From Clostridium sp. (GTDB lineage: Bacteria > Bacillota > Clostridia > Lachnospirales > Lachnospiraceae), in contig JAMPEW010000003.1 of NCBI GenBank assembly GCA_023664775.1, positions 1 through 64,000 on the forward strand: a stretch of DNA of 64,000 nucleotides, given 5' to 3'. The notes beneath the pieces are model-generated. The model did not search any database. It was not told the DNA's origin and was given only the letters and a program-made list of their open reading frames with translations. How positions within the stretch are numbered: position 1 is the stretch's first letter; each line of letters starts with the position of its first letter. Below are positions 54,232 through 61,598 of this stretch, one piece after another. Made by a program: the position numbers and the translations under genes.

Positions 54232-54810
54232 ATGGGGTATGAAATAATAATTATTACAGCAGCTTATATTGGTTCAGTTTTTTGGATTTTGCGGGTTAAT
54301 AAAAAAAATAATGAAAATCGGAATAAAAGCATCACTGCTAAAAGCATATTTTTATCAGCGGTTATTGTGGTTGTTTCTGTGCATTTAGAAATTTGTTGGT
54401 TTGTAATATGGCTTTTTTTTATGAGCTTCGATTCGCTTTTGGGTAATCGTGATAGAATTAATACAATGATGCATCATATTATGGTTGACGTGGTTTACAA
54501 TTTGGTTTTAATTTTTATAACCTTTATTACAATCATCATAATTTTTAAGCTGGTTGTAAAATGCAAAATATCAAAAAAAATATGGATTATTTTAGTGGAA
54601 TGTACGGTAATATCCATAGTGTTTTCCATCGTGGGTGGAGTATTTTCGGAGGATATATTATCTAAGCTGTCGCTGCCTGATGTAGATTTTCTGCCTCTAT
54701 TTACAACTGCAGCTGTGGCTATGGTAAAAATAAATGTCATAGAAATTGTACATATAATCAACAGATGTCTGCTTGTTATTTTGTCAACATATGATGCGGT
54801 AAATCAATAG
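54232..54810 (+). CDS. Four-helix membrane protein, paralogue 1
   Basis: A 192-residue protein with about four membrane helices and no known motif. It shares its layout with the protein encoded at 55065-55664: IITAAYIGSVFWILRVNKKNNENRNKSITAKSIFLSAVI, IMVDVVYNLVLIFI, FKLVVKCKISKKIWIILVECTVISI and the common end IINRCLLVILSTYDAV. AAAGGAA precedes the ATG. No neighbour suggests a function. Confidence 0.7.
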   Translation: MGYEIIIITAAYIGSVFWILRVNKKNNENRNKSITAKSIFLSAVIVVVSVHLEICWFVIWLFFMSFDSLLGNRDRINTMMHHIMVDVVYNLVLIFITFITIIIIFKLVVKCKISKKIWIILVECTVISIVFSIVGGVFSEDILSKLSLPDVDFLPLFTTAAVAMVKINVIEIVHIINRCLLVILSTYDAVNQ

Positions 54811-55064: not shown

Positions 55065-55664
55065 ATGAAATACATATATTTAGAAACAATTATTATGCTG
55101 GCAGCTTATATTAGTTCAGTTTTTTGGATAATGCTGGTTAATAAAAAAAATAATGGAAATTGGAATAAAAGCATCACTGCTAAAACGTATATTTTATCAG
55201 TGGTTATTGCGGCAGCTTCTGTGCTTTTGGAACGTGTTGTAATATTGCTGTTAGATATGGCTTTTGCTTCATTTAGCGGCACTAACACTATGGCGTATGT
55301 TATAGTTGACGTGATTTATAACTTGGCTTCATTTTTTATAAGCTTCATTACAATCATTATCATTTTTAAACTGCTTGCAAAATGTAAAATAACGAAAAAT
55401 ATATGGATTGTGTTAGCGGTATGTACGGTAATATCCATAGGAGCTTCTATCGCAGGCGGAGTAATTTCAGCGGATATTTCAGCGGATATTTCATCTGTCA
55501 TGTCGCCTGATGCAAATTTCCTGTCATTTTTTGTAGCTGCAGATGAGGCTGCGGCAAAGTTGAATGTCATAAGCGATGTACATACAATCAACAGATGTCT
55601 GCTTGTTATTTTGTCAACATGGGGCGTGGTAAAGCCACTGTCAAAAAATGTGGAAAATGAATAA
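55065..55664 (+). CDS. Four-helix membrane protein, paralogue 2
   Basis: A 199-residue paralogue of the protein encoded at 54232-54810, with shared N-terminal MLAAYISSVFWIMLVNKKNNGNWNKSITAKTYILSVVI, YVIVDVIYNLASFFISFITIIIIFKLLAKCKITKNIWIVLAVCTVISI and HTINRCLLVILSTWGVV. Four membrane helices; a loop carries a short duplicated SADISADIS. GAGGGGA is upstream of the ATG. It and its neighbour arose by tandem duplication; function is unknown. Confidence 0.7.
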   Translation: MKYIYLETIIMLAAYISSVFWIMLVNKKNNGNWNKSITAKTYILSVVIAAASVLLERVVILLLDMAFASFSGTNTMAYVIVDVIYNLASFFISFITIIIIFKLLAKCKITKNIWIVLAVCTVISIGASIAGGVISADISADISSVMSPDANFLSFFVAADEAAAKLNVISDVHTINRCLLVILSTWGVVKPLSKNVENE

Positions 55665-55758: not shown

Positions 55759-55788
55759 GGTCGGTAAAGAATTTTACCGACCTTTTCT
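55759..55788 (+). terminator. Rho-independent terminator after the membrane paralogues
   Basis: GGTCGGTAAA (55759-55768) pairs perfectly with TTTACCGACC (55773-55782), followed by TTTTCTT. Confidence 0.9.
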
Positions 55789-55848
55789 TAATAAAGCTCT
55801 TGATTTAATATTCGAAAAAGTATACAATTACAATCGGAAGATTTTGGT

Positions 55849-55899: not shown

Positions 55900-57324
55900 A
55901 TGAGTAACAAACTTAGTTTGTCAGCAGGCGACAGAATTGCAGCGTTGCTTGATGACGCAAGCTTTGTTGAGATAGGTGCTTATGTTACCTCAAGAAGCAC
56001 GGATTTCAACATGCAGGAAACTGATACTCCTAAAGATGGTGTCATAACCGGCTATGGTGTTATCAATGGAAAAATAGTCTATGTTTACAGTCAGGACGCT
56101 TCCGTTCTCGGTGGTGCAGTAGGCGAGATGCATGCAAAGAAGATTGCAAAGGTATATGATATGGCTATGAAGGTAGGCGCGCCTGTGGTTGGATTGATTG
56201 ACTGTGCAGGTATAAGACTTCAGGAGGCTATGGATGCAATGAATGCCTTTGGAGAGCTTTATCTTAAACAGTCTCTTGCATCAGGCATTATTCCTCAGAT
56301 AACTGCAGTATTCGGAACATGCGGCGGCGGTGCGGCACTGATTCCTGCGCTTACTGATTTTACTTTTATGACTGCGGAGGGCTCGAAAATATTTGTAAAC
56401 AGCCCAAATGCTTTAGACGGAAATAACGAGTCAAAGCTTAATACCGCATCAGCAGAATATATCAGTGGAAATACATCTCTTGTAGATGGGGTGTTTGACG
56501 GTGATGCAGAGCTTCTCGCACAGGTGAGGGGACTTATCGATATGCTTCCTTCAAACAATGAGGATGACGATACCACAGAATGTAGTGATGATTTAAACAG
56601 AATTATTCCGAATCTTGATGGACTTAATAAGGACGCAAGGGGCGTGCTTTCAAATATTGCTGACAACAATATATTCTTTGAGGCATACAAGGGCTTTGCA
56701 AAGGATATGGTGCTTGGATTTATTAAGCTGAATGGACAGACTGTAGGCTGCGTTGCAAACAGTGTGGAGGATGGCGGCGACTACCTTTCTACATCGGGTG
56801 CTTATGTTGCTGCGGATTTCGTGAAGTTCTGCGATGCATTTTCAATACCTGTTCTTACATTGGTAAATGTCAAGGGCTTTGTAGGCACTGTTGCCAATGA
56901 AAGAATGATAGCCGATGCAGCAGGAAAGCTCACTTATGCGTATGCAAATGCAACGGTTCCAAAGGTAACGGTTGTCATGGGAGATGCATTTGGAACAGCC
57001 TATACAGTTATGAATTCTAAAGGAATCGGTGCTGATATGGTTTATGCATGGCCAAATGCCAAAATAGGCACAATGGAACCTGAAATGGCAGTTAAGATTA
57101 TGTATGCCAAGGATATAGATGCGGCGGAGGATAAGAAGGCTTTTGTTGAGGAGCGCAAGAAGGAGTACACGGAGCTTCAGTCAAGTGCCATTGCGGCTGC
57201 AAAAAGAGGCTATGTGGATGATATTATAGAGCCTGACGCAACAAGAAAGCGTCTGATTGCTGCTTTTGACATGCTTTATACAAAAGCAGAGGAAAGACCA
57301 TATAAGAAGCATGGTGTATTATAA
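55900..57324 (+). CDS. Acyl-CoA-type carboxyltransferase (12S-like/methylmalonyl-CoA decarboxylase alpha-like)
   Basis: A 474-residue carboxyltransferase of the crotonase-like ACC-beta/PCC-beta family, which moves CO2 between biotin and an acyl-CoA. Two lobes are visible: the N-terminal SQDASVLGGAVGEMHAKKIAKVYDMAMKVGAPVVGLIDCAGIRLQEAMDAMNAFG and CGGGAALIPALTDFTFM, and the C-terminal VANSVEDGGDYLSTSGAYVAADFVKFCDAFSIPVLTLVNVKGFVGT. It is shorter than 12S (about 510). First gene of the operon with the biotin carrier, Na+ pump and a 5S-type carboxyltransferase. Confidence 0.9.
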   Translation: MSNKLSLSAGDRIAALLDDASFVEIGAYVTSRSTDFNMQETDTPKDGVITGYGVINGKIVYVYSQDASVLGGAVGEMHAKKIAKVYDMAMKVGAPVVGLIDCAGIRLQEAMDAMNAFGELYLKQSLASGIIPQITAVFGTCGGGAALIPALTDFTFMTAEGSKIFVNSPNALDGNNESKLNTASAEYISGNTSLVDGVFDGDAELLAQVRGLIDMLPSNNEDDDTTECSDDLNRIIPNLDGLNKDARGVLSNIADNNIFFEAYKGFAKDMVLGFIKLNGQTVGCVANSVEDGGDYLSTSGAYVAADFVKFCDAFSIPVLTLVNVKGFVGTVANERMIADAAGKLTYAYANATVPKVTVVMGDAFGTAYTVMNSKGIGADMVYAWPNAKIGTMEPEMAVKIMYAKDIDAAEDKKAFVEERKKEYTELQSSAIAAAKRGYVDDIIEPDATRKRLIAAFDMLYTKAEERPYKKHGVL

Positions 57325-57342
57325 AAAATGAGGTGACAGGAA

Positions 57343-58326
57343 ATGAAAATGAAAAAAAGCTTAATCGTAATTTCCATGTTTGCTGTTATGGTATCTCTGT
57401 CAGGCTGTGAGGATAGCAAGGAAGCTGTTTTTGAATATGATGATTCGCAGATTGTCCTTGATACAATGGCTTATTTTGACCAATATGCCGATGTTTCAGG
57501 AGATTATGCAAAATACTATATTGAAAACGGTACGGAGTTTGAGCAGTCTGCCGTAAAGGGTATCAGGCAGGCGATTGATACAGATAAGGTAGGAAAGCTT
57601 CAGGATTATTCAGGCATACTTTCAAATGCACAGGCGACAGGTCTTTTTAGTCCTGAATCTGCTGACTACAAGATAGTGAATAATGATGATTCAGTCAGTG
57701 TTACAATTATAAACAGAGCCGAAAACAGAGATGTTGAAATAACGGTTAAATATGTAGAAAACCCTGAATATTTTATGGAGTATGACATGGCATCTCAGTA
57801 TTATACGGATGATACGATACAGGCAGTGATTGAGCAGAATGGGCTGACGCTTGACTATCTGCTTATGATGTATGGATGCTCCGACATGGAGGAATTGAAG
57901 AAAACGCTTATCGAGAGCGATATGGAATATGCGGGCTTAAAGCCATATGAGCCAGAAGAAATGGTTGTATCTGCAGTATATTCCAAGAAGGAGCTTATGG
58001 CGTCCGCAGGAAGAAATACAATTATTGGAATGGGTACAGTGTTTGTTGTTTTGGTTTTCATATCATTTATCATATCACTGTTTAAATTCCTGCCTGCACT
58101 GTTTGCGCCAAAGCCGAAGCTCCCGCAAGAGGAGGAGAAGAAGCCGGCAGCACCTGTGGCAGCACCAAAACCCGTGACGGCAGTAAGTGACAATCTTATA
58201 AATGACGCAGAGCTTGTTGCAGTAATAACGGCAGCCATATATGCAGCGTCAGCAGATATGGGCGGCAGCGGTGCAGTAAGTAAGGACAGGCTTGTTGTAA
58301 GGTCCATAAGACGTGCAAAACGGTAG
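57343..58326 (+). CDS. OadG-family gamma subunit fused to an N-terminal lipoprotein domain
   Basis: A 327-residue protein. It opens with a lipoprotein signal (VMVSLSGC, Cys at about residue 22), then a 200-residue extracytoplasmic domain without known motif, one membrane helix (about residues 230-252, NTIIGMGTVFVVLVFISFIISLFKF) and the cytosolic, Pro/Ala-rich linker and short helix (NLINDAELVAVITAAIYAASA) seen in OadG/gamma subunits. Ordinary OadG has about 80-120 residues, so the front part is an addition. The gamma subunit bridges alpha and beta and binds a metal in characterised enzymes. Confidence 0.85.
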   Translation: MKMKKSLIVISMFAVMVSLSGCEDSKEAVFEYDDSQIVLDTMAYFDQYADVSGDYAKYYIENGTEFEQSAVKGIRQAIDTDKVGKLQDYSGILSNAQATGLFSPESADYKIVNNDDSVSVTIINRAENRDVEITVKYVENPEYFMEYDMASQYYTDDTIQAVIEQNGLTLDYLLMMYGCSDMEELKKTLIESDMEYAGLKPYEPEEMVVSAVYSKKELMASAGRNTIIGMGTVFVVLVFISFIISLFKFLPALFAPKPKLPQEEEKKPAAPVAAPKPVTAVSDNLINDAELVAVITAAIYAASADMGGSGAVSKDRLVVRSIRRAKR

Positions 58327-58373
58327 ATGATAAAAGAGAATATCCATTAAATGATTTAGGAGGAATATAAAAA

Positions 58374-58745
58374 ATGAAGAATTATAGAATTACCGTAAAT
58401 GGTACAGCATATGACGTAGCAGTTGAGGAGATGGGAGCGGGAGCAGCACCTGCAGCAGCGCCCGTGGCAGCACCTGTAGCAGCGCCGGCGCCTGTGGCAG
58501 CCCCTGCACCTGCTGCATCAGGAAATGAGGGGAAAGTTAAGGTTGCTGCACCTATGCCTGGTAAGATATTAAGCGTAAAGGCAAGCGTGGGAGCATCCGT
58601 TAAGAAGGGCGATATTATTCTTATTCTTGAGGCTATGAAAATGGAAAATGAGGTTGTTGCACCTGAGGACGGTACAGTAGCAAGCATTAATGTTTCAGAG
58701 GGTGCTTCTGTTGAATCAGGAGACACACTTGCAACATTAAACTAG
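58374..58745 (+). CDS. Biotin carrier protein (biotinyl domain)
   Basis: A 123-residue carrier: a short N-terminal piece, an Ala/Pro hinge (about residues 25-52, PAAAPVAAPVAAPAPVAAP), and a C-terminal biotinyl domain with the biotin-lysine in ILEAMKMENEVVAPEDGTV. It carries carboxybiotin between the two carboxyltransferases and the membrane pump, as the 1.3S subunit does in Propionibacterium transcarboxylase. AGGAGG before the ATG. Two Ala/Pro-rich GC-heavier codons runs mark the hinge. Confidence 0.95.
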   Translation: MKNYRITVNGTAYDVAVEEMGAGAAPAAAPVAAPVAAPAPVAAPAPAASGNEGKVKVAAPMPGKILSVKASVGASVKKGDIILILEAMKMENEVVAPEDGTVASINVSEGASVESGDTLATLN

Positions 58746-58786
58746 TTATGGGTTTTGTACCTATAAAAACAGGAGGTAACAGCTAA

Positions 58787-59911
58787 ATGAGCTTTGGAGA
58801 TATTTTAAAAAATCTGGCTGGACAGACCGGATTTGCGAGTCTTACATGGAAGCACTACGTTATGATACTGATCGCATGCTTTTTCATGTATCTTGCCATT
58901 GTCAAAGGCTTTGAGCCGCTTTTGTTAGTGCCGATTTCCTTTGGTATGTTTCTCGTAAATATGTTTCCGGGAATTATAGAGGAAGGCGGACTTTTGCATT
59001 ATTTTTATTTGTTGGATGAGTGGAGCATTCTTCCGTCACTTATTTTCCTTGGCGTAGGCGCCATGACGGATTTTGGTCCCCTGATTGCCAACCCTAAGAG
59101 CTTTATCCTTGGAGCGGCGGCACAGTTTGGTATTTATGCGGCATATTTCCTTGCGTTCCTTATGGGCTTTAACGGCAGGGAGGCGGCAGCAATTTCAATC
59201 ATAGGAGGCGCTGACGGTCCTACATCTATCTTCCTTGCAGGAAGACTTGGCATGGGCGGTACACTTATGGGACCGATTGCAGTTGCGGCATATTCCTATA
59301 TGGCGCTTGTGCCGGTTATACAGCCGCCGATTATGAAGGCTCTCACAACAGAGAAAGAACGAAAGATTAAGATGAGTCAGCTTCGTCCTGTAACAAAATT
59401 AGAGAAAATTCTGTTCCCTATTGTAGTTACGCTTGTGGTTGTCCTCATTCTTCCTACAACGGCACCGCTTGTAGGTATGCTTATGCTGGGTAATTTGTTC
59501 CGTGAGTGCGGCGTTGTTAAGCAGCTTACTGAAACGGCGTCAAATGCACTTATGTATATTGTCGTTATTCTGCTTGGAACATCTGTCGGTGCAACAACAA
59601 GCGCAGAGGCATTTTTACAGTTAAGCACCTTGAAGATTGTTGCTCTTGGTCTTATTGCATTTATGTTTGGTACGGCGACGGGCGTTATATTCGGCAAGAT
59701 AATGTGTAAGGCTACAGGCGGCAAGGTGAATCCGCTGATAGGCTCGGCAGGCGTTTCTGCGGTTCCTATGGCAGCCAGGGTTTCACAGAAGGTTGGCGCG
59801 GAGTACGACCCGACAAACTTTCTTCTTATGAATGCTATGGGACCAAATGTTGCCGGCGTTATCGGTACGGCAGTAGCGGCAGGAACCTTCCTTGCCATAT
59901 TTGGAGTTTAA
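58787..59911 (+). CDS. Na+-translocating decarboxylase beta subunit (OadB/GcdB/MmdB family)
   Basis: A 374-residue integral membrane protein, about nine helices, that decarboxylates carboxybiotin and pumps Na+ outward. The family signature with the catalytic/ion-binding Asp is visible in EAAAISIIGGADGPTSIFLAGRL, and the second conserved stretch in NPLIGSAGVSAVPMAARVSQKVG. Length suits the Firmicutes GcdB/MmdB type. AGGAGGT precedes the ATG. This is the Na+ pump of the operon, so any decarboxylation or transcarboxylation by the other subunits can be energy-conserving. Confidence 0.96.
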   Translation: MSFGDILKNLAGQTGFASLTWKHYVMILIACFFMYLAIVKGFEPLLLVPISFGMFLVNMFPGIIEEGGLLHYFYLLDEWSILPSLIFLGVGAMTDFGPLIANPKSFILGAAAQFGIYAAYFLAFLMGFNGREAAAISIIGGADGPTSIFLAGRLGMGGTLMGPIAVAAYSYMALVPVIQPPIMKALTTEKERKIKMSQLRPVTKLEKILFPIVVTLVVVLILPTTAPLVGMLMLGNLFRECGVVKQLTETASNALMYIVVILLGTSVGATTSAEAFLQLSTLKIVALGLIAFMFGTATGVIFGKIMCKATGGKVNPLIGSAGVSAVPMAARVSQKVGAEYDPTNFLLMNAMGPNVAGVIGTAVAAGTFLAIFGV

Positions 59912-59916
59912 TATAT

Positions 59917-60155
59917 ATCCTAAGGGGGACCGGCGAAGCCGGTGGATGCCTTAGGATGTGGCTCCACACGAAGTGTGGAGTGATACCTGATATCTTATGG
60001 CAGACCACAGAGTAAGTGGATGCCTTAGGATGCGGCTCCACACGAAGTGTGGAGTGATACCTGATATCTTATGGCAGACCTACGGAGTAAGTGGATGCCT
60101 TAGGATGCGGCTCCACACGAAGTGTGGAGTGATGGCTCCTTGCGGAATGTGGAGT
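59917..60155. repeat. Tandem 74-75-bp hairpin repeats in the decarboxylase operon
   Basis: Two full units start at 59942 and 60016 and a partial third at 60091. Each contains CTCCACAC-GAA-GTGTGGAG and CCTTAGGATG. The first is nested: ATCCTAAGG (59917-59925) pairs with CCTTAGGAT (59949-59957) around ACCGGC-GAA-GCCGGT. The array occupies the 277-base gap between the beta-subunit gene and the 5S-type gene; there is no ORF or terminator T-tract in it. Confidence 0.92.
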
Positions 60156-60188
60156 TTAATCATTAATATAATATAGGAGGATATATAA

Positions 60189-61598
60189 ATGGCAGTAGAG
60201 AAAAAACCGGTAAAGATTACCGAAACAATATTGCGTGATGCCCATCAGTCGCTTATCGCTACAAGAATGACGACTGAGCAGATGCTTCCAATCATAGATA
60301 AAATGGATAAGGTCGGATACCATTCTGTTGAGTGCTGGGGCGGAGCTACCTTTGATGCATCACTTCGGTTCCTGAAGGAGGACCCATGGGACAGGCTTAG
60401 GAAATTAAGGGCTGGATTTAAAAACACGAAGCTTCAAATGCTTTTCAGAGGACAAAACATTCTCGGCTACCGTCACTATGCAGATGACGTGGTAGAATAC
60501 TTTGTTCAAAAATCCATTGCCAACGGTATAGATATTATTCGTATATTTGACTGCTTAAATGATATAAGAAACCTTGAGACTGCTGTTAAGGCTGCAAATA
60601 AGGAAAAGGGACATGCACAGGTTGCACTTTCTTATACATTAGGCGAGGCATATACGCTTGACTATTGGAAGAATATTGCAAAGAAGATTGAGGATATGGG
60701 TGCTGATTCCATCTGTATCAAGGATATGGCAGGACTTTTGGTTCCAAATGCGGCAACTGAGCTTGTTACTGCCCTAAAGGAAAGCACGAAGCTTCCAATA
60801 CAGCTTCATACACATTATACGTCAGGTGTTGCTTCCATGACTTACATGAAGGCTGTTGAAGCAGGCTGTGATATTATAGACACGGCAATGTCACCACTTG
60901 CACTTGGAACGAGCCAGCCTGCAACTGAGGTTATGGCAAAGGCATTTGAGGGTACAGAGTTTGACCCTGGCTTTGACCAAAATCTTCTTGCTGAGATAGC
61001 AGATTATTTCAGACCTATGCGTGAGGAGTGGCTTGCAAGCGGACTGCTTAATCCAAAGGTTTTGGGTGTTAATATTAAAACACTTCTTTATCAGGTACCG
61101 GGCGGTATGCTTTCCAACCTGGTATCACAGCTTAAGGAAATGAATGCGGAGGATAAATATGAGGAGGTGCTTGAGGAGGTGCCTCGAGTTCGTAGGGATT
61201 ACGGTGAACCGCCTCTTGTTACGCCTTCCAGTCAGATTGTAGGTACGCAGGCTGTACTCAATGTAGTTACAGGCGAGAGATACAAAATGTGTACCAAGGA
61301 GTCAAAGGCGCTTGTCGGTGGCGAGTATGGACAGACCGTGCTTCCAATTTCCGACGAAGTCCGCAAGAAGGTTATCGGAGATAAGGAGCCTATTACCTGC
61401 AGGCCTGCAGACCTTTTGGAAAATGAGCTTGATAAGCTGGAAAAGGAGATTGCACAGTACAAGCAGCAGGATGAGGATGTACTGACCTATGCGTTGTTCC
61501 CACAGGTGGCAATTGATTATTTCAAGTACAGAGAGGCACAGCAGACAAATATTGATGCAACAGTAGCTGATACGGAAAATAAGACGTATCCGGTGTAA
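60189..61598 (+). CDS. Pyruvate/oxaloacetate carboxyltransferase (5S-type, OadA N-terminal domain-like)
   Basis: A 469-residue TIM-barrel carboxyltransferase of the pyruvate carboxylase B/OadA/transcarboxylase 5S family, moving CO2 between biotin and pyruvate. Seen: ITETILRDAHQSLIATRM (metal-binding Asp), ECWGGATFDASLRFL, LFRGQNILGYRHYADDVV, the carbamylated Lys in SICIKDMAGLL, LPIQLHTHYTSG (metal-binding His pair) and MSPLALGTSQPATE. No biotinyl domain is attached, so it must use the separate carrier. AGGAGGA before the ATG. It lies 277 nt after the pump gene, over the hairpin array. Confidence 0.94.
   Translation: MAVEKKPVKITETILRDAHQSLIATRMTTEQMLPIIDKMDKVGYHSVECWGGATFDASLRFLKEDPWDRLRKLRAGFKNTKLQMLFRGQNILGYRHYADDVVEYFVQKSIANGIDIIRIFDCLNDIRNLETAVKAANKEKGHAQVALSYTLGEAYTLDYWKNIAKKIEDMGADSICIKDMAGLLVPNAATELVTALKESTKLPIQLHTHYTSGVASMTYMKAVEAGCDIIDTAMSPLALGTSQPATEVMAKAFEGTEFDPGFDQNLLAEIADYFRPMREEWLASGLLNPKVLGVNIKTLLYQVPGGMLSNLVSQLKEMNAEDKYEEVLEEVPRVRRDYGEPPLVTPSSQIVGTQAVLNVVTGERYKMCTKESKALVGGEYGQTVLPISDEVRKKVIGDKEPITCRPADLLENELDKLEKEIAQYKQQDEDVLTYALFPQVAIDYFKYREAQQTNIDATVADTENKTYPV

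Follow-up and report, generated by a model that had tools for sequence, protein, structure and literature searches.

A Na+-pump operon whose single biotin carrier may also serve acetyl-CoA carboxylation in a Lachnospiraceae genus

Overview

The window analysed here, a stretch of 64,000 nucleotides (nt) of contig JAMPEW010000003.1 from Clostridium sp. (Lachnospiraceae), carries an operon of five genes, encoding a 12S/MmdA-like carboxyltransferase subunit (hereafter CT12), a gamma subunit, a biotin carrier, a beta subunit and a 5S-type carboxyltransferase. Based on sequence comparisons, we propose that the operon encodes a Na+-coupled oxaloacetate decarboxylase with a layout similar to that of methylmalonyl-CoA decarboxylase (Mmd), and that its single carrier is the carboxyl hub of the cell, most likely also serving the AccD-AccA pair (AccDA). 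The probability of this reading is put at about 0.55. The surprising part is the single-carrier state without biotin carboxylase (AccC) across the whole genus. Biotin carboxylase is usually held indispensable to bacterial acetyl-CoA carboxylase.

Organization of the operon

The five genes are intact open reading frames (ORFs) on the + strand. Their order, as given in an original prediction made from the DNA letters alone, was confirmed by the ORFs and by Pfam and NCBIfam matches:

55900-57324, + strand: CT12, 12S/MmdA-like acyl-CoA carboxyltransferase subunit with shifted motifs (Pfam Carboxyl_trans, 382 bits)
57343-58326, + strand: gamma, OadG-type with an extra N-terminal lipoprotein-like part (Pfam OAD_gamma, 77 bits, residues 222-302)
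58374-58745, + strand: biotin carrier, 1.3S/MmdC-like (Pfam Biotin_lipoyl, 74 bits)
58787-59911, + strand: beta, predicted carboxybiotin decarboxylase/Na+ pump (Pfam OAD_beta, 504 bits; alignment to 6iva)
59912-60188, + strand: spacer between beta and 5S, three 65-nt direct repeats forming hairpins
60189-61598, + strand: 5S, 5S/OadA-type carboxyltransferase for oxaloacetate/pyruvate (PYC_OADA, 191 bits; HMGL-like, 67 bits)

The 12S-, 5S- and 1.3S-like part types of a transcarboxylase are all encoded together. Among the NCBIfam models, beta reaches the cut-off of TIGR01109 and 5S that of NF008985 (oxaloacetate decarboxylase alpha; 771.5 vs 718), gamma barely reaches that of TIGR01195 (37.4 vs 36.05), and the carrier stays below that of MmdC (122.5 vs 200). 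The best PDB matches of 5S are pyruvate carboxylase beta, oxaloacetate decarboxylase alpha and transcarboxylase 5S.

A single carrier and no biotin carboxylase

The genome of the window (60 contigs, 95.87% complete) was compared with a genus set of 37 genomes and a wider set of 99 relatives. Carboxyl_trans was matched there by nothing but CT12 and a single AccD-AccA pair, which is encoded on another contig than the operon and lay outside the DNA on which the original prediction was made. AccD and AccA pass the cut-offs of TIGR00515 and TIGR00513, respectively, and keep their motifs. The ratios of nonsynonymous to synonymous substitution rates (dN/dS) of 0.053-0.118 for AccD and 0.014-0.062 for AccA (seven pairs) indicate purifying selection.

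Biotin_carb_C had no match in the genome of the window, and 34 of the 37 genus genomes likewise gave none. The domain is present in the genus only in G022, G015 and G007 (loci L079, L080, L081 and L122), and in 45 of the 99 relatives overall; as a control, it was detected in 13 of 14 named genomes. A protein search with AccC gave five matches in the genome of the window, the best of which (E 3e-14) lies in a frame of 1081 amino acids (aa), a length that matches carbamoyl-phosphate synthase. A gene for FabD, an enzyme that uses malonyl-CoA, is present in 30 of the 37 genus genomes; biotin carboxylase was missing from 27 of these. When only genus genomes of 95% completeness or more are considered (17), FabD without biotin carboxylase is seen in 15, one of these being a single contig, and neither is seen in the other two. 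In all the fatty-acid clusters that were read (16 of the 27), accD-accA lies beside fab genes, with no FabH match in one of them (L143), and AccB and AccC were absent from all 16 at E 1e-4. In the control loci from genomes with AccC (L079, L080, L148 and L149), accB-accC adjoins accD in four of four.

Biotin_lipoyl searches covered all 37 genus genomes. Exactly one strong carrier match was found in 32 of the 34 genomes lacking biotin carboxylase, in each case together with operon genes, which in G001 and G011 means on the contig of 5S and not on that of CT12. Two strong carriers each were found in G007, G015 and G022, the genus genomes that have biotin carboxylase. Other Biotin_lipoyl matches are weak (E of at least 7e-5) and lie in longer frames. 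The idea of a carrier shared by two carboxyltransferases is thereby strengthened. A separate carrier for each carboxyltransferase would have refuted the original prediction, whereas the operon has one carrier gene. Since AccDA needs a carboxylated carrier and the operon carrier is the only one found, the operon carrier most likely feeds AccDA. A second lineage of this kind is family f11 (two genomes, G070 and G089), in which no AccC was found, AccDA and FabD are present, and the one strong carrier lies in the operon.

A separate observation concerns G078 of family f19 (L114, L115 and L119), which has FabD and methylmalonyl-CoA mutase with no AccC or AccDA match, recalling the gene set of Thermotoga. 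Its canonical carboxyltransferase adjoins its one carrier, 5S lies elsewhere, and no beta match was seen in the two stretches read.

Proposed mechanism

In the proposed mechanism, 5S would move the carboxyl group between oxaloacetate and the carrier, and beta would release it as CO2 while exporting Na+. The same carboxylated carrier would feed AccDA, turning oxaloacetate and acetyl-CoA into pyruvate and malonyl-CoA, which would amount to an acetyl-CoA carboxylase without biotin carboxylase. The oxaloacetate would come from a divergent homologue of phosphoenolpyruvate (PEP) carboxykinase (PEPCK). Carboxylation of the carrier is predicted to be possible from oxaloacetate through 5S, from an acyl-CoA through CT12, or through a reversed pump; malonyl-CoA would thus arise by transcarboxylation or by Na+-driven carboxylation. 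Conversion of acetyl-CoA to malonyl-CoA via AccDA appears to be the best-supported acyl-CoA branch. We infer a single complex, the direction of flux, the contact between carrier and AccDA, all activities and the oxaloacetate supply.

If the proposal is true, lipid synthesis in these gut bacteria would be coupled both to the sodium gradient and to the PEP-oxaloacetate-pyruvate node. Inhibitors of biotin carboxylase (AccC), an enzyme under study as a target for antibacterial drugs, would then fail to hit such cells.

Pump, oxaloacetate half-reaction and oxaloacetate supply

Beta was aligned to the solved structure 6iva, and the positions compared were those that PMC7274780 gives as Na+ sites or as required for function. 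Among 54 non-identical beta proteins, the residues E40, D203, Y229, N373, G377, S382 and N412 are conserved in all, N311 is conserved in 52, and S419 is replaced by Thr in 44, including the window. In 5S, the residues Asp17, Lys178, His207 and His209, which we take to be key functional positions, are conserved in 55 of 55 proteins. The attachment Lys of the carrier is conserved in 65 of 65. Judging from these residues, the pump appears to be functional and so does the half-reaction with oxaloacetate; a change at Arg304 of beta, weighed below, calls for caution.

The OAD_gamma domain was matched by 18 of 18 aligned gamma proteins. Gamma is not a plain OadG, as about 215 extra N-terminal residues with a lipoprotein-like start precede the domain. 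Cys22 is invariant among the 18. The N-terminal part gave no convincing Pfam family, gamma as a whole gave no PDB sequence match, and it evolves fast.

As for the supply of oxaloacetate, PEP carboxylase was found in none of the 99 relatives. The genome of the window has no pyruvate carboxylase (its sole PYC_OADA match is the operon 5S, and it has no biotin carboxylase domain) and no canonical ATP-PEPCK; canonical PEPCK is present in many other genus genomes. The divergent PEPCK homologue of 578 aa lies at 1081-2817 of locus L132 (G000:C6) and keeps the P-loop and nearby motifs. It scores 44 bits with PF01293, above the cut-off of 26.5, and 127 bits with the NCBIfam model, under the cut-off of 369.

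Divergence of CT12

The best NCBIfam match of CT12 is mmdA (TIGR01117), with a score of 456 vs a cut-off of 998.8 bits. The CT12 proteins of operons group together in a tree built from 82 CT12-like sequences, in one clade of 58 rows with a support of 99/98; three rows of the clade without a complete operon (L020, L024 and L038) are cut by contig ends. When operon CT12 (n = 53, leaving out the f11 proteins L109 and L110) was aligned with canonical relatives (n = 21), 13 columns were at least 90% conserved in both groups and yet different, two of them as gap vs residue. As the 21 canonical proteins were chosen by the motif GGAR[IVM], the shift at this motif is partly built in. Several of the shifted columns fall in motifs that, in the relatives, line the active site. 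The motifs of CT12 are thus shifted, but conserved in their new form, and those of the f11 proteins are degraded further. Together with the missed mmdA cut-off, the shifted motifs argue against CT12 being a standard methylmalonyl-CoA enzyme.

In addition, 67 positions are invariant among the 53 CT12 proteins. The dN/dS of CT12 is 0.016-0.072 in nine pairs and 0.023-0.066 in five pairs from FabD-less genomes, and divergence is faster in CT12 than in beta and 5S. Such low dN/dS values imply that CT12 is needed, whether it carries out an altered reaction or plays a structural part. The protein may act on a further acyl-CoA or be mainly structural, and may have become non-catalytic.

Weighing of the proposal

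Several points weigh against the proposed hub. The seven FabD-less genus genomes (G003, G011, G013, G019, G023, G024 and G029) all retain CT12, which is the only Carboxyl_trans match in six of them; G029, 64% complete, has two. The operon is therefore not kept for fatty-acid synthesis alone. Among the 34 genomes without biotin carboxylase, G016 and G031 gave no strong carrier match. Arg304 of beta is replaced by Gln in 44 of the 54 proteins, including the window, and an excerpt of PMC7274780 describes this residue as essential in the Salmonella pump. CT12 and AccDA would be two acyl-CoA enzymes for one carrier, which is left unexplained, and the operon carrier may not be accepted by AccDA.

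A side observation on the FabD-less genomes is that G022 and G007, which have biotin carboxylase, nest in a clade of the CT12 tree otherwise made up of FabD-less genomes and one locus of undefined state. Going by this one gene tree, the two may have regained fatty-acid synthesis together with a carboxylase of their own.

It is possible, though we hold it as a tentative alternative, that the operon is an oxaloacetate-decarboxylase Na+ pump derived from an mmd-type operon plus 5S, in which CT12 has become a non-catalytic scaffold, with or without the link to AccDA. The shifted motifs of CT12 with their further degradation in f11, its retention in FabD-less genomes and its faster divergence compared to beta and 5S would all suit a scaffold. 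However, invariance extends over a large part of the fold core and numerous motif residues (the 67 positions invariant among the 53 proteins), which exceeds what a scaffold would be expected to require, and a scaffold alone leaves AccDA without AccB and AccC unexplained. A rather doubtful variant is that the pump runs in reverse, beta carboxylating the carrier biotin with CO2 by means of the Na+ gradient without ATP or biotin carboxylase, and the carrier serving pyruvate through 5S and acetyl-CoA through AccDA. It fits a genome with no match to PEP carboxylase and with neither pyruvate carboxylase nor canonical ATP-PEPCK, although the divergent PEPCK homologue is present. If it were true, fatty-acid synthesis would be powered by the sodium gradient.

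The remaining explanations place the acyl-CoA chemistry elsewhere. CT12 itself might make malonyl-CoA from acetyl-CoA for fatty acids, AccDA being otherwise employed or redundant. There is a precedent for this in Caldicellulosiruptor bescii, described in an excerpt of PMC7071700, and CT12 occurs in 36 of the 37 genus genomes; but AccDA remains in the fab cluster under purifying selection, and the CT12 motifs are unlike those of the canonical relatives and the aligned Thermotoga maritima protein, which renders this role unlikely. Less weight was also given to the idea that the malonyl-CoA for fatty acids comes from CT12 alone, as the operon is kept in the seven FabD-less genomes with CT12 under the low dN/dS given above. 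Quite unlikely is also an unrecognised biotin carboxylase or carrier that feeds AccDA in place of the operon. An unrelated enzyme could escape homology searches, and the assembly is fragmented into its 60 contigs and incomplete; however, the result is the same in the 15 FabD-containing genus genomes at least 95% complete, including the single-contig one, and the controls detect the domain in nearly all named genomes. An enzyme of a propionate pathway, either a methylmalonyl-CoA decarboxylase or a transcarboxylase, would agree with the mmd-like layout and with mmdA as the best match of CT12, but is scarcely credible. The mmdA cut-off is missed by more than half, and methylmalonyl-CoA mutase (PF01642) is found in none of the 37 genus genomes and in only two of the 99 relatives, both of which carry a canonical carboxyltransferase. 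The methylmalonyl-CoA/propionate role was rejected on the absence of the mutase from the genus.

Distribution and expression of the operon

The 103 loci compared comprise the window, 62 loci from a CT12 scan of named genome contigs and 40 stretches of other genomes, some contigs having been fetched twice. Any match was obtained in 101 of them, and 71 of these keep the order CT12-carrier-beta-5S on one strand, or 55 if only non-identical CT12 proteins are counted. Gamma sequences frequently diverge too far to be picked up by tblastn. Besides the family of the window, seven others of the taxonomic order (f2, f4, f7, f11, f21, f22 and f24) have this arrangement, the loci including Dorea, Blautia, Claveliimonas, Oliverpabstia and Lachnoclostridium. 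The search for the same gene order in relatives thus supports the claim that both carboxyltransferase types, one carrier and a pump are encoded together. The layout is common in the taxonomic order rather than odd, and on the whole the original prediction is partly supported. In the genus, 5S is present in 33 of the 37 genomes and CT12-length matches in all but one, the misses being mostly in incomplete genomes. Variants were also found. CT12, carrier and beta occur without 5S in Erysipelothrix (L042) and Clostridium hydrogeniformans (L061), and in an Oscillospiraceae metagenome-assembled genome (L062, 8001-11199) CT12-like, carrier and 5S genes are adjacent while the locus lacks a beta match, which makes it a pump-free variant.

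The intergenic gaps are 18-48 nt, except for the 277 nt between beta and 5S, and the five genes are likely to be on one transcript. Pattern scans for promoters and terminators, which overall were not above chance (19 promoters vs 22.1 expected; 9 terminators vs 7.2 expected), gave the following sites upstream of CT12:

55759-55782, + strand: terminator-like hairpin of the upstream unit
55800-55834, + strand: promoter-like sites for the operon

The sequence TTGATT 5' of CT12 is conserved in 14 of 16 aligned genus loci. No control element common to the operon and accD was visible in the alignment, judged by eye and without statistics. The median beta-5S gap is 45 nt in the 55 loci with non-identical CT12, window included. 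The RNA of the 277-nt spacer folds with -120.5 kcal/mol (z -8.2), and the 19-nt core of its repeats has no exact match among 153 loci. The repeats might tune the expression of 5S or split the transcript. Further upstream lie two tandem, similar-looking hydrophobic ORFs of 192 and 199 aa (54232-54810 and 55065-55664) with no Pfam or NCBIfam match.

Comparison with known systems

No description of an AccC-free AccDA fed by the carrier of a Na+ pump in Lachnospiraceae was found in searches of open-licence papers in PubMed Central (PMC). Similar to the operon, OadABG has a 5S-type carboxyltransferase, beta and gamma, and the Na+-site residues named in the excerpt of PMC7274780 are kept. The operon differs by its separate carrier, the extra CT12, the lipoprotein-like part on gamma and the Arg304 to Gln change. 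MmdA-D shares a 12S-type subunit, delta/gamma, carrier and beta with the operon, in what we take to be a similar gene order, whereas in the operon CT12 and carrier fall under the curated cut-offs, 5S is added, and no mutase accompanies it in the genus. The transcarboxylase of Propionibacterium likewise unites the 12S, 5S and 1.3S part types in one set; unlike it, the operon has a Na+ pump and a diverged CT12.

The FapR-controlled 'malonyl-CoA biosynthesis' unit of C. bescii (B5X54_RS07175-07190), compared by the content described in the excerpt of PMC7071700, resembles the operon in having a methylmalonyl-CoA-type carboxyl transferase, a hypothetical protein, a carrier and an oxaloacetate decarboxylase, and differs in that the excerpt lists no pump in the unit. 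It counts as a precedent for the proposed hub as well. Use of a Na+ gradient for the carboxylation of pyruvate and acetyl-CoA is indicated by the title of Dimroth and Hilpert (1984), and the oxaloacetate decarboxylase of Halomonas elongata is presented as an anaplerotic enzyme in reverse operation in an excerpt of PMC7545133. Unlike the proposed hub, these reversed Na+ pumps are not tied to AccDA or to the loss of AccC. In 62 butyrivibrio genomes, an excerpt of PMC4478896 reports patchy acetyl-CoA carboxylase subunits and universal oxaloacetate decarboxylase.

In part of their paper (PMC3199775), Lombard and Moreira describe some biotin-dependent carboxylases as absent in Thermotogae, the Thermotogales row of a table showing '-' in all but one column. 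A further precedent lies in the Thermotogales: compared by gene content alone, the T. maritima control resembles the genus, with no biotin carboxylase domain and with FabD and both carboxyltransferase families. Its carboxyltransferase (1vrg) keeps the canonical motifs, in contrast to the shifted motifs of CT12.

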